Shown piece by piece: positions 4,501 through 24,782 of a stretch of DNA of 32,339 nt (its first letter is position 1; each line of letters begins with the position of its first letter). The notes beneath the pieces are model-generated. The model saw only the letters and a program-made list of their open reading frames with translations. It was not told the DNA's origin and searched no databases. This DNA is from Syntrophobacterales bacterium. GTDB lineage: Bacteria > Desulfobacterota > Syntrophorhabdia > Syntrophorhabdales > WCHB1-27. The DNA lies in the NCBI GenBank assembly GCA_017881765.1, contig JADGQN010000004.1, positions 1-32,339 on the forward strand. Reading direction: 5' to 3'. Both the position numbers and the translations under genes were made by a program.

Positions 4501-5440
4501 GCGCTTCGCACTTCTTAAAAAAGGGGTGTGCAGGAGGTTGGGCCTGTTTTTTCAGCGCTGTTCGTTTCACCGGCGGATCAAAGCAGACATAAGGCAGGGC
4601 ATCAGAAGACGGCAAGAAGTAGCCTGACGAGAAATAGGTGTCAAGCTGCTCAATCAATCGCTCCACGGCTTTCGGGGTATATATAGACCTGTTGAGGCCC
4701 GCGTCCTGCGTGAGGATATCCAATATTTCCCGGCGCGAAGCGGGCCATGAGCCGGCAGTATCGGAGAAAGCAGCCAGACACGCCTGTTCGGCTGCATCAG
4801 GCATTATCTCTTTCTGCGCACGTCCTCCCCCCTTCACGCGCAGAAAGGGATTTCTCCCACAGAGACGTATAAGCTTCAAAAGCTCTTCCGGATTCACCCA
4901 GGTGCGAATGCAGCTGAAGAACTGACTCGAACCCCCGGAAAAATTTATCCTCCAGAAATCATGGACCATCTCTTTGATCATGTCTGTTTCATCTTCCAAC
5001 AGTTCCGTATCGAAGAGTGACCCGCTCTCAAACGCATGGTTATGCAAAGCCCGCAAACAGAAACCGTGGATGGTGAAAATGGCCGCTTCATCAAAGCTGC
5101 GTAAAGCGTCGGTCAGGAATCGCCTTGCCCGATCATGATCTGTCGCCCTCGATACCAGTCCCGCGAGAAAGTCGTCTGTGCCCGCTCCATACGTGAAGGC
5201 TAGAAGCGCCTCCTTGATCCTCGTGCGTATCCTGCCTTTCAGCTCGTCCGTTGCGGCTTTCGTGAAGGTAACCACAAGGATCTCTTTAGTCGAAAGGCCT
5301 CTTTCAACGAGTAACCTCACGTAGAGGCCGGCAAGGGCATAGGTCTTGCCTGTGCCTGCACTTGCTTCCACAAGAGTCCATCCCGTGAGAGGGACCTCGT
5401 GCGGGTCAAAGTTGGCCGGAGCCATCCGTGGGTCCATCAC
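1580..5440 (-). CDS. recB: Exodeoxyribonuclease V subunit beta (RecB), UvrD/REP helicase plus C-terminal nuclease
   Basis: VEASAGTGKTYALAGLYVRLL, ALIDEFQDTDPLQYAIF, LIGDPKQAIFGFRGAD, TIHKSKGLEYPI, and nuclease motif GYIDLVFRRDHRYYIVDWKSN. ATGA overlap with recC. Confidence 0.97.
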   Translation of the reverse strand: MMDPRMAPANFDPHEVPLTGWTLVEASAGTGKTYALAGLYVRLLVERGLSTKEILVVTFTKAATDELKGRIRTRIKEALLAFTYGAGTDDFLAGLVSRATDHDRARRFLTDALRSFDEAAIFTIHGFCLRALHNHAFESGSLFDTELLEDETDMIKEMVHDFWRINFSGGSSQFFSCIRTWVNPEELLKLIRLCGRNPFLRVKGGGRAQKEIMPDAAEQACLAAFSDTAGSWPASRREILDILTQDAGLNRSIYTPKAVERLIEQLDTYFSSGYFLPSSDALPYVCFDPPVKRTALKKQAQPPAHPFFKKCEALRERLADTITCYDEKLADVRSELIDFVKRESSKRKLDRNVRTFNDLLLDLFEALEGVGGSGLAASLRRRYKAALIDEFQDTDPLQYAIFKKIYGYENATLFLIGDPKQAIFGFRGADVFAYIRASGDVAQHFTLDTNWRSSGPLIRAVNAIFDRPDAPFLLDALEYLPVMGRRTAPEELTFDGRPDPSPFKLWLLARKMEGKPLTRGSAREVLYKAVCFEIGRLLELGGRGKALIGSRPVGASDLAVIVRTNREAREVQSVLRQVNIPSVVYTGESVFGSDEALELEQIFQAVSDPTDEGRVKVALVTRMLGISGDALACMTDLHGQATGAVVARGNLSSEHGEREGEAPPALLVEGATRAPVIADETEWEKWLTRFEEYRLLWLRSGFISMARKLVSREQIKPRLGALPDGERRLTNLLHLLELLHRVATQEKMGVEGLLKWLNERRHLVQDTAEEEHQIRLETDELAVKIVTIHKSKGLEYPITFCPFLWGDSRITQSVITYHDKEENYQSVVDVSMTPDETTIECAETEQLAENIRLTYVALTRAKYRCYAAWGYINNSETSALAYLLHGRTLSRCDLAALETHMKSLSDDALTGELRSLAERSQGAIELLPVPEQTTPYYFGCRPIDSYGRACGNLSSEHGEREGEAGYPRADGGSPAEEATRAPEIGLLRLRPFTGQIERDWRVSSFSALTSGKDEPAELPDRDSQAQEEPPATGLVAQVEVSPGLSIFTFPAGAKAGSCLHEIFQYLDFARFESEEVRGLVTEKLARYGFAADWVDTVCLLIKNVLTAPLDDERSSTLSALGPDDRLREVEFHVPLELITPEGLGSFFASSEGRADPSLGGLIKRLGFKPVRGMLKGYIDLVFRRDHRYYIVDWKSNYLGASPEDYARERLMTVMEREFYTLQYHVYAVALHRFLELRLPDYDNEKHFGGVYYLFLRGMGPTGEYGVFFDRPAPERISALAHYLTGR
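2496..2615 (-). repeat. Intragenic palindromic repeat, recB copy 1
   Basis: Minus strand GATAGATTCC-N15-GGAAATCTATC inverted repeat, then TAGCGAGCACGGCGAGCGAGAGGGGGAGGC, a variable hairpin (GCCGGG...CCCGGC), then GGCGACGCGAGCCCC. Encodes GNLSSEHGEREGEAGYPRADGGSPAEEATRAP. Confidence 0.85.
3417..3539 (-). repeat. Intragenic palindromic repeat, recB copy 2
   Basis: 17-bp inverted repeat GACAGATTTCCACGGGC (3486-3502) / GCCCGTGTAAATCTGTC (3523-3539) with one mismatch; same 31-nt core as copy 1 apart from one base; internal hairpin CTCCACCAGC-AAA-GCTGGCGGAG (3434-3456). Encodes GNLSSEHGEREGEAPPALLVEGATRAP. Confidence 0.88.
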
Positions 5441-8400
5441 GCCCTCTCCTGATGTTCCATCAGCGGATCAAAAACCAATTGGGCAATCTCTTTGAACGGA
5501 TCGGCAAACGGATCAAGCTCTCCAAAGCAGAGACTGAGGTAGGGGTCAGCACCTTCCGACGGGCGCCCGGGGGCAAACTCCGAACCCTCCCACGCGGTCT
5601 GTGCTGCCCTCAGAGCCTCACTCACTGCTGCGCCCTTGCTCAGGCGTTCCGCAAAAGCCAGCGAGGTTTCCGGGAAAAACCTGAGGGGCTCCTTGACTCC
5701 TTGCCAGTAAAGATGAAGCAGCATCTCGATTATTGCGCCCGCACCTTCGATAGGCTGGAGAGCCCAGGTCTTGTCCATGGTGATCAAACGGGTCGTAAGG
5801 GGGTATCCCTCCTTCCTTACCAGGTTGAGCAGCAAATGATCCATCCAGCACGCAAGATGATAACTGGCCTTGTCCTTGGCAAAATGATAGGTGACCAGGG
5901 CTGATGGCCAGACGTTATCGATACGCCCCGATATCCTGAATCCTGCTATCATAGCATCGACCTCGACCGGCGGTAGGGCGCGATCGGTTACGTGCGGCCG
6001 GATATCTTTAGAAAAAGCTTCGACTTCATTAATCAACCCAGTGAACGCGAGGTCCCCGGGCGTCCCGGGAGGGAGAATGCCTTGCGCACGCGCCACAGCT
6101 TTGTAAGAGTTCAGTTCCTTATCCGCTAAAGCCTTTCTGATCAGCCCATTGCCCAAGGCGTAGCGGTCGAGGATGTCCAACGAAAAAGGTTCCTCTCCCT
6201 TGAGGGTGAGGTCACGCTCTTCCAGATAAATGCCCAACCTGTGCCGGAGAAGATAACGGGCCGGGTTTTGATAAAATCTCTTCAGATCCTGGACGGAGAC
6301 GTACTTCCATTCAGGGGCCGGCTCGCTCAAGGGCTTTGATATGAATGGAGCCTGCTTGAGCCGTGCGTTTGATCGGGCATGTGCAGTATCGAAATCCTCT
6401 TCCGAATAACTGAAGAGCCGCCCGTCGCCCGCGAAATAGGCAGGGCTGAAGGCCTGGAGGCGATGGCTCGTCACGAGAAGATTCGCGACTGTGGAGGAAT
6501 CCGGCACCGAGAAACCCTGGTCGCAGTAATCGAGTAGCTCGCTCACCAGCACCGAGGGTGGAATAACGCTATTATCCCGGACGTTCTGGCCTATGTAACT
6601 TATATAGAAGAGATCCCTGGCAGAGAGCACGGCCTCCAGAAACAGGTACCGGTCCTCGTCGCGAAGCGAGCGGTCTCCTGCTTGCGGATCCTGGCTGATA
6701 AGGTCAAAGCTCACGGGACGCTCCTCCCGCGGATACGCATCATTGTTCATACCGATGAGAGCCACTACCCGGAACGGGATGCTCCTCATGGGCAGCATCT
6801 CGCAAAAAGTGACACCGCCCGTAAGGAACCCTCGAGAAAGTTGCTCAGTCCCGAGACGCGTTGACAGGTAATAGCGAACCACCTCAATCTCCACCGGATC
6901 CGTAAATTCTGAAAGTTCCTGGAGACGCCGGAGCTCTCTGAGTTGACCCTTCAAAAGCTCCATATCATGGGCCGTTTCCTCATCTTCCGTAAGGAAGATC
7001 GATCTCAGTCGCTCAAAAAGATCACTCCATTCAGCAAGCGTTCGGGGCGTCTCGAGGGCCCGCACAGCGTCGAAGAGCTGCTCCAAGAACTCAAGAAGAC
7101 GCCCGAGTATCTCCGCTTCATCACCTTCTACATCACGGTAAGGAAGCCGGTCCATGAAAAGTTTTTCTTCATCAACCTGCAGCGCATATCCAAGGATGAG
7201 ACGCTCGATACCGGCCTTCCAGCTGTTCTCCTCGAAGGCAGGCAAACCGAAGCCTGCCCGGTGCTCTCCATCGATCCCCCAGCGTATGCGCGTGTCAACC
7301 ACCCACCGAAGAATCACGTCGACGTCCTCATCCGGAAGGCCAAACTTGTTCCTCACAGCCGGCGAGCTGAGCACATCCATGATTTGCGAGGCCTGGAGAC
7401 GGCTTTTACACAGACCTATGATCTTGAGAAAGAGATCAATGACGTAGCTCTCGGCGGGTGCCCGCCTGTCGGCTATGGAATAAGGGATCCGCATCCCTTC
7501 ATCCCGGGGAGCGTCAAACACAGCCGTTATATAAGGCGCGTACGTCTCTATATTGGGAGTCATCACGAGTACGTCCCGGGGAGCAAGGCCCTGGTGCGTT
7601 TCAAAAAGAGTGAGCAGCGTATCGTACAAGACCTCGACCTCGCGCCACGGACCGTGACAGGAATGGACCTGAATAGACGTATCATCAGGGTTGATGATCG
7701 TCTTCGGACCGCTCTCCCCTCTGTTCCGGAGGTTGAGAACGTCAGACTGAATAGCGCAAAGCAACGACTCCTCTCCCGGATCAATGAAATCAGAAACAGG
7801 CTCCGAATCCAGGTCGAGAATGGCGCGGAAGAAATCGCGCCCCAGTTTGCCGAGAGATGCGAGAAGCGGATTTCCTATCTCAAAATGAAGCTCGGCCGGA
7901 AAAGATGATTTCTCTCCCTCTGCCCGTTCGACACTGACAATCTTTCTTTCCGGTACAATGTCTGCCCAGTATTCCCTGGAGGGATTGAGAAGAAACAGGT
8001 GTACCGGGATGCGATTCGCAAGGGCTTTTAAAACTTCAAGGTGGTAGCGTGGCAACGCCGGTATACCGAAAACAGAGATGCGCTCGGGCAGACCATGGAG
8101 GTCATGGGGGGCGCCACTGCCATGCACGTCGGAAAGAATCGTGGTCGTCTCTCTCCAGACCCTGGCCCGGTGCGTGTACCCCTCTTTCCGGTAAAGAAGA
8201 CGCCAGAGTTGGGCCTGCCAGTGGTGTTCAATACCCCGATCCCATCCGAGTACCTGTTCCGGCCGATAGACAGCATACGTGTCGAAGACGTCCGCAATGC
8301 GCTCTGCCAGTTGGAGCTTTTTCAAGCTGAGCTGGGTGTTACCAAAGTACAGGCGTAAGGCTTCAAAGCCTTCCTTTTCGAGACAATCGGGCAAGGCCTT

Positions 8401-8691
8401 TACGATACGCCACGCGTTTACCTCCGTGCTCAGGCGGTCAAAATCGGGTACCTTCTCAGAGACCGCTTTGAATACCTCCCACGTAAACCTGTTGGGAAAA
8501 GGGAAGCTGCAGTTTGCCCAGACACCCACCCTTGACGCAAGCTCCATGGAGAGCCAGCGCTCCATGCCTTTGCTCTGGACGATGATCACTTCACCCACAA
8601 ACGGCGAAGAGAGGGGCTTGGCAACTACTGCGGCCAGCCGCTCTGCAAGTGTTTCAAGACGGTTACTTGTGTAAATGTTCAACCCTGACAT
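5437..8691 (-). CDS. recC: Exodeoxyribonuclease V subunit gamma (RecC)
   Basis: N-terminus MSGLNIYTSNRLETLAERLA, IIVQSKGMERWLSMELA, GGVTFCEMLPMRSIPFRVVALIGMNNDAYPREERPVSFDL; operon position. Confidence 0.95.
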   Translation of the reverse strand: MSGLNIYTSNRLETLAERLAAVVAKPLSSPFVGEVIIVQSKGMERWLSMELASRVGVWANCSFPFPNRFTWEVFKAVSEKVPDFDRLSTEVNAWRIVKALPDCLEKEGFEALRLYFGNTQLSLKKLQLAERIADVFDTYAVYRPEQVLGWDRGIEHHWQAQLWRLLYRKEGYTHRARVWRETTTILSDVHGSGAPHDLHGLPERISVFGIPALPRYHLEVLKALANRIPVHLFLLNPSREYWADIVPERKIVSVERAEGEKSSFPAELHFEIGNPLLASLGKLGRDFFRAILDLDSEPVSDFIDPGEESLLCAIQSDVLNLRNRGESGPKTIINPDDTSIQVHSCHGPWREVEVLYDTLLTLFETHQGLAPRDVLVMTPNIETYAPYITAVFDAPRDEGMRIPYSIADRRAPAESYVIDLFLKIIGLCKSRLQASQIMDVLSSPAVRNKFGLPDEDVDVILRWVVDTRIRWGIDGEHRAGFGLPAFEENSWKAGIERLILGYALQVDEEKLFMDRLPYRDVEGDEAEILGRLLEFLEQLFDAVRALETPRTLAEWSDLFERLRSIFLTEDEETAHDMELLKGQLRELRRLQELSEFTDPVEIEVVRYYLSTRLGTEQLSRGFLTGGVTFCEMLPMRSIPFRVVALIGMNNDAYPREERPVSFDLISQDPQAGDRSLRDEDRYLFLEAVLSARDLFYISYIGQNVRDNSVIPPSVLVSELLDYCDQGFSVPDSSTVANLLVTSHRLQAFSPAYFAGDGRLFSYSEEDFDTAHARSNARLKQAPFISKPLSEPAPEWKYVSVQDLKRFYQNPARYLLRHRLGIYLEERDLTLKGEEPFSLDILDRYALGNGLIRKALADKELNSYKAVARAQGILPPGTPGDLAFTGLINEVEAFSKDIRPHVTDRALPPVEVDAMIAGFRISGRIDNVWPSALVTYHFAKDKASYHLACWMDHLLLNLVRKEGYPLTTRLITMDKTWALQPIEGAGAIIEMLLHLYWQGVKEPLRFFPETSLAFAERLSKGAAVSEALRAAQTAWEGSEFAPGRPSEGADPYLSLCFGELDPFADPFKEIAQLVFDPLMEHQERA

Positions 8692-8731
8692 CAGTGCACG
8701 ACCGTGCGAATATCATAGCAGAGTTGCAATG

Positions 8732-8938
8732 CGACCGCTACGCTTAAGGACCGCCACCTGCGATGGCTTGAGGACCACTGCGTTCGAGGAGCTGCCTTCG
8801 GCCTTGAGGTAGTTGCCTCAAGTCGCCGCAGGCGACGCTCCTTAAGGGAACTAAGTTTCCGGTCCTTGAGCCTCGCCACAGGCGGGGCGGTCCTCGAAGC
8901 ACGCCCGAGGGGGTGCTGGTCCTTAAGCGTAGCGGTCG
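8732..8938. repeat. 207-bp nested palindromic element in the recC / CxxC-protein intergenic region
   Basis: Terminal 21-bp inverted repeat CGACCGCTACGCTTAAGGACC (8732-8752) / GGTCCTTAAGCGTAGCGGTCG (8918-8938), enclosing several short hairpins (TTGAGG-TAGTTG-CCTCAA; GTCGCC-GCA-GGCGAC; GCCTCGCC-ACA-GGCGGGGC) separated by GGTCCTYRA-type spacers. Confidence 0.85.
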
Positions 8939-8949
8939 TCACCGCCCGC

Positions 8950-20910: not shown

Positions 20911-21041
20911 TCTGTGAGACCGGTTCGCTGGTTTCTTTGGTTTTTCTCGTTTCTTTGGTTTCTCCGGTTAAACGAGAAATTGAGGCTGCCGCGGGCGGCA
21001 TGGTGGTTACTGCGTTCCTGATATGTAATTGAGAGCGGTTG

Positions 21042-24305: not shown

Positions 24306-24782
24306 TCACCAGTAATTGATGCCGGATTTCCTTTTCCAATCAGGATCGAACTGGTCCTCAAAATAATTCTCCAGTTTTTCGAGAAGCCGCTTCCACCCCT
24401 TCTTGTATTCTTGGGTAAGGATATCTTCGAGAAAGGGAAGTATCTCCCCCAGCTTGTCTTTCGGAAGATAGGCACGCGCACCCAGGTCGTGAGACTTTTT
24501 CAAGGCCTCAGGGCTGAGCGCGTGGGCTGTGAGCATGCCCACCTTAAGATCCCGTTTCACAGCCAGCTCAAGGAGGTCGAAGCCTCGCACGCCCATGATA
24601 TCAAGGATTACGATATCGTACGGGTTAGCGTTTATCAGCTCAACCCCTTTCTCGTAGGTGGTCGCCTTATCGACCTGACAGTTCGGGCAAGAGTCCTTTA
24701 TCTCTCCCTCCAATACGGCCAGCACATCAGGTTCGTCATCCACGGCTAGAATTCTTTTACCATCCAAAACCGATGCTGTCAT
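24306..24782 (-). CDS. Response regulator receiver protein
   Basis: ILAVDDEPDVLAVL, DIVILDIMGVRGFDLL, AYLPKDKL. Confidence 0.9.
   Translation of the reverse strand: MTASVLDGKRILAVDDEPDVLAVLEGEIKDSCPNCQVDKATTYEKGVELINANPYDIVILDIMGVRGFDLLELAVKRDLKVGMLTAHALSPEALKKSHDLGARAYLPKDKLGEILPFLEDILTQEYKKGWKRLLEKLENYFEDQFDPDWKRKSGINYW

Follow-up and report, generated by a model that had tools for sequence, protein, structure and literature searches.

What is the 207-nt nested palindrome that lies beside recC in the 32,339-nt stretch of DNA analysed here (the window), and how did it come to be there? The element occupies the 329-nt spacer between recC (assigned by NCBIfam TIGR01450, E 2.5e-284) and an ORF on the opposite strand. 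The earlier note had described several independent hairpins and their spacers within a perfect 21-bp terminal inverted repeat, all of which were confirmed (Table 1) except for the independence: the inner hairpins belong to a single regular series around a centre. From left to right, the outer bases CGACC are followed by four hairpins with 9-nt TYRAGGANC linkers, the centre TTGAGGTAGTTGCCTCAA, five hairpins with the reverse complement of that linker (GNTCCTYRA) and the closing GGTCG, which places nine short hairpins inside a terminal repeat that continues to 27 nt at the 93% identity level. Folded as DNA, positions 8722-8948 reach -73.5 kcal/mol against -44.5 +/- 3.6 kcal/mol for 200 dinucleotide shuffles (z = -8.1; 0/200 as good); the palindrome is genuine and chance is excluded. 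As had been claimed, no credible ORF explains the element, and the ORFs of about 300 nt called across some of its copies are present in few copies only. Elsewhere in the window, a 9-nt repeat, TTCTCTGGT, occurs five times in imperfect form at positions 20924-20969, and a lone TTTGAGGACC match without an array (24353-24362, minus strand) is likely due to chance.

Table 1. Parts of the element beside recC and its neighbouring genes, in window positions; linkers on the + strand have the left orientation, those on the - strand the right
Feature	Position	Strand	Remark
Whole element, nested modular palindrome	8732..8938	.	missing from the orthologous spacer of the same-genus genome G001
Left terminal inverted repeat, 21 bp, perfect	8732..8752	+	CGACCGCTACGCTTAAGGACC
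Right terminal inverted repeat, 21 bp, perfect	8918..8938	-	exact reverse complement of the left repeat
Hairpin 1	8737..8743	.	GC-TAC-GC
Linker	8744..8752	+	TTAAGGACC
Hairpin 2	8753..8767	.	GCCACC-TGC-GATGGC, one mismatch
Linker	8768..8776	+	TTGAGGACC
Hairpin 3	8777..8783	.	AC-TGC-GT
Linker	8784..8792	+	TCGAGGAGC
Hairpin 4	8793..8803	.	TGCC-TTC-GGCC, one mismatch at foot
Centre	8804..8821	.	TTGAGGTAGTTGCCTCAA, point of unit-orientation reversal
Hairpin 5	8822..8836	.	GTCGCC-GCA-GGCGAC, shared core hairpin
Linker	8837..8845	-	GCTCCTTAA on + strand
Hairpin 6	8846..8860	.	GGGAAC-TAA-GTTTCC, core hairpin; stem covaries between copies
Linker	8861..8869	-	GGTCCTTGA on + strand
Hairpin 7	8870..8888	.	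GCCTCGCC-ACA-GGCGGGGC
Linker	8889..8897	-	GGTCCTCGA on + strand
Hairpin 8	8898..8917	.	AGCACGCCCGAGGGGGTGCT
Linker	8918..8926	-	GGTCCTTAA on + strand
Hairpin 9	8927..8933	.	GC-GTA-GC, GNA loop on + strand
recC	5437..8691	-	start at 8691, 40 bp from element; context only
Divergent ORF, 142 aa	9020..9448	+	no Pfam match; start region conserved in G001; context only

The genome search that the earlier note had proposed returned 42 BLAST matches to the element in its own 4.6-Mb draft genome, with stems that covary between copies, and the locus is not a one-off. Since several contigs end inside copies, the true copy number is probably higher than counted (this assembly is 79% complete, and most of the genomes compared are drafts). 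About 25 copies inspected side by side share a common grammar and differ in their hairpins. Adjacent linker-hairpin-linker pairs number 93, against 1 with the reversed pattern that served as control in the same genome, and of 130 segments between linkers 93% are hairpins with no more than one mismatch (after shuffling, 10%), chiefly of the discrete lengths 7, 11, 15 and 19, with the feet GGANC and TYRA throughout the parsed copies. Many copies have in common a core of about five units, found in both orientations, that reads ATCAGGCC hairpin, GCTTCGC, GGCC hairpin, centre, GTCGCC hairpin and GGGAGC or GGAAAC hairpin. The hairpins of the family are interchangeable, and stems of the core covary, GGGAGC/GCTCCC standing against GGAAAC/GTTTCC and others, so that the third and fifth pairs of this stem alternate between G-C and A-T. 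The outer hairpins vary, and only about five outer bases (CGACC/GGTCG) are commonly shared. A second dispersed palindromic family (GGCTCGCGTCGCCCCC..., as at L005:1270-1370 on contig C491 of the same genome) has 43 matches in this genome, adjoins some of the elements and has many short matches in genomes of the same family.

BLAST of the whole element found no match in 59 relatives; copies differ in their hairpins, so that this search misses relatives and pattern searches are required. The one-unit pattern was positive in 15 of 396 genomes of the phylum, in several families (reversed control, 0), and when 85,462 species were searched all 17 named matches outside the element's own genome fell in Desulfobacterota, Deltaproteobacteria or groups within them; the family occurs patchily within one phylum. 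Plasmids and phages gave no DNA match to the element, and seven pattern matches on viral contigs, representing one related phage sequence without an array, were taken as chance. In the same-genus genome G001 (97% complete), unit pairs are at background (3 vs 1 in the control). Its recC spacer measures 143 nt without the element, compared to 329 nt with it here, and the element is also missing at three other orthologous sites (L008, L010 and L012), with flanks that align on both sides at all four; at L007 the joined flanks match continuously in G001 by one comparison, a separate alignment there being uninformative. This absence at the compared sites indicates that copies were gained (or lost) after the species split, and loss in G001 could in principle replace insertion here as the explanation. 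No target-site duplication was seen at the orthologous empty sites, where the flanks are 20-25% diverged and the junctions blurred, and this absence is not firm.

The loops of the hairpins point to the form in which the element may act. On the strand reading TYRA-hairpin-GGTCC, GNA loops, usually closed by C-G, cap 14 of the 23 distinct triloop stems and TNC loops none (binomial p 7e-12 against an assumed background of 1/16, the stems being kin by descent and not fully independent), and loop polarity is locked to linker orientation. A GNA or GNNA loop on a G-C stem makes an extra-stable DNA mini-hairpin of the kind known from Hirao and colleagues; for GCGAAGC the Tm is 78 C (PMC4686876). G.T and A.C mismatches have no clear strand bias (7 vs 12 in the source genome, 4 vs 6 in others), as expected for DNA and not for one RNA strand. 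Taken together, loop polarity and unbiased mismatches favour single-stranded DNA as the probable working form, although the polarity could have been inherited from one ancestral hairpin instead of selected.

Our data suggest, with a probability that we put at about one half, that the element belongs to a dispersed family of non-autonomous intergenic repeats, copied via single-stranded hairpin DNA by a putative enzyme and then remodelled unit by unit. Each copy is a mirror-symmetric array, with several units (GGANC foot, short hairpin, TYRAGG) running inwards on the left, an inverted centre and like units running outwards on the right. Both the origin and the movement of copies would pass through single-stranded DNA, probably at times when the lagging-strand template lies exposed; on the exposed strand the units would fold as GNA-capped mini-hairpins and the opposed linkers would pair, giving a branched ladder. 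The putative enzyme, recognising hairpin plus linker, would insert the element between genes without visible target duplication, after which outer units may be gained, lost and swapped and the core of about five units kept. The intergenic position most likely reflects tolerance.

Orthologous spacers within one genus bear on how such arrays are made. Nine sites at which genome G181 has an element were compared with the corresponding spacers of up to six sister genomes; some of these spacers hold the same element with whole units exchanged, and others hold mirror-symmetric arrays of unrelated sequence, for example of GGCGTAAG-, GAGTTCGG- and CCAATAACC-type. Intergenic slots with mirror-symmetric arrays of 7-nt units, in many unrelated sequences, were recorded at L292-L331 in G253, G333, G274, G089 and G369. 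Spacers were scored by fold and lag-7 periodicity (a local-alignment inverted-repeat score was dropped, having missed even known copies), and the threshold for one or the other was passed by 20 of 32 orthologous spacers outside G052 against 30 of 98 random spacers from G089, G253, G333 and G274 (Fisher p 0.0017), a difference that we treat as a lead and not as a measured effect because the sites were chosen for the element in G181, thresholds were chosen manually and there is no random sample for G369 (4 of the 32). The best lag was 7 in 24 of the 32. In G052 the spacers are short or plain (2 nt from stop to start codon at L209), and none passed the same threshold (orthologous 0/8, random 0/18). 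A telomerase-like origin of the G-rich arms was not adopted, as some arrays run from C-rich to G-rich.

These slots lend weight to a rather unlikely alternative, in which errors of replication or repair (strand slippage, fold-back, template switching at breaks) built the arrays where they stand, repeated breakage at tolerated spacers making and replacing them with no transposition enzyme. Sister species hold different palindromic arrays at orthologous slots, many with 7-nt periodicity whatever the sequence, no mobilising enzyme was found among the Y1 transposase loci described below, and fold-back synthesis typically yields hairpins and mirror arms. However, the same hairpin words and five-unit core stand at many unlinked loci of one genome, which requires copying between loci, and the family in the source genome has little 7-nt tandem structure, its linker spacings being mainly 16, 20, 24 and 28 with a spacing of 7 only once. 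Some spacings of 7 do occur in the relatives' copies.

The earlier note had proposed both a composite REP/MITE-type element and a site bound by a REP-associated transposase. The part of the first proposal that stands is a dispersed, modular, BIME-like palindromic repeat, with the high-copy intergenic inverted hairpins and the layout of BIMEs and REPINs; the REP tag and the constant ends of a MITE are missing, and none of the Y1 genes examined is flanked by units. The transposase search did recover a REP-type tyrosine transposase gene in the source genome (L037:1188-2262; best family REP_Tyr_transpos), but the match is below the curated cut-off, no units lie near the gene, and the 26-nt terminal repeat on its two sides (TAGGGACGTTGTTGCG...) is unrelated to the element. 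Unit clusters lay within about 1.5 kb of 0/32 Y1 loci from element-positive and element-negative genomes, no mobilising enzyme for the family was found among the Y1 loci examined, and Y1 genes with clear terminal repeats carry other sequences, several of GGGGTCAGGC-type; the proposed binding site is not supported. Inverted repeats of GGGGTCAGRC-type border the Y1 genes at L166, L170, L171, L178, L184 and L187, which form a separate mobile family. A true REP/BIME family, whose transposase gene is missing from the 79% complete assembly or is too diverged to be linked, is unlikely on this evidence and on the absence of a GTAG or CGTC tag at the hairpin foot in the parsed copies. Counts of Y1 genes are higher in element-positive genomes (n = 12) than in element-negative ones (n = 7; Mann-Whitney p 0.0025), with none in G001 or G052, but this difference may reflect general mobile-element load.

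The hairpin-ladder family and the unrelated 7-nt mirror arrays at the same slots could also be products of one process, an enzyme writing convergent arrays of short units into intergenic DNA, such as a repeat-synthesising polymerase, a reverse transcriptase or an HUH nuclease whose guide changes; we consider this reading improbable. We hold similarly low expectations of a structured RNA or leader (attenuator or mRNA stabiliser) that would control recC or the divergent gene, as the earlier note had proposed for recC. The element does lie 40 bp upstream of recC, it folds very stably as RNA (-131 kcal/mol over 207 nt), and 12 of the 18 copies in the source genome with both flanking ORFs called (simple longest-ORF calls) sit between divergent genes. 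Copies nevertheless stand beside unrelated genes in all orientations, the same-genus recC has none, the window matches no Rfam model at gathering thresholds, and the mismatches without clear strand bias also speak against RNA; identity as a recC leader is not supported. A miniature inverted-repeat element of a DDE transposase would share the terminal inverted repeat, the intergenic position and the absence at orthologous sites but is very improbable, as the ends differ between copies because the outer hairpins vary, and no target-site duplication was seen at the diverged empty sites. An integron attC site was considered and provisionally set aside, given the core sites generally described for attC.

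Of the closest known systems, BIMEs and REPINs with their REP-associated tyrosine transposases (PMC2817692; PMC3116915) are likewise short inverted hairpin units, intergenic, dispersed and mosaic. The hairpin-ladder family is BIME/REPIN-like in layout and lacks two features that define REP families, the GTAG/CGTC tag and units at the examined Y1 loci; it differs further in a 9-nt linker between interchangeable hairpins of different sequence and in often having four or five units in each arm. GTAG- and CGTC-tagged palindromic repeats (PMC3733652) are also intergenic and form dimers with structured spacers, whereas the element has no tag; Deltaproteobacteria, Desulf-, Geobacter and Syntroph- do not occur in the main text of that study. 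The multicopy nucleotide sequences of Geobacter metallireducens and G. bemidjiensis, as presented in the passages compared here (PMC2700814; PMC2996986), comprise many intergenic families, some palindromic, some of tandem 6-42 nt repeats and one with four heptanucleotides; they resemble the element in their hosts (former Deltaproteobacteria), intergenic position and partly palindromic nature, but those passages describe neither a convergent ladder of hairpins nor the TYRAGGANC linker. A literature search for the linker strings returned only unrelated matches among those listed. The TAACTGA heptamer repeats of Beggiatoaceae and cyanobacteria (PMC4679880) are similar in being intergenic, patchily distributed 7-nt units, but they are direct repeats without hairpin modules, whereas the element is mirror-symmetric and hairpin-built. 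Beside these systems it stands for mirror-symmetric hairpin DNA that related genomes have acquired between their genes, each copy one to three hundred bases long, with a GNA-loop polarity that points to a single-stranded DNA substrate and with presence/absence sites across sister species that offer a direct test of how palindromic repeats spread and are remodelled in bacteria.
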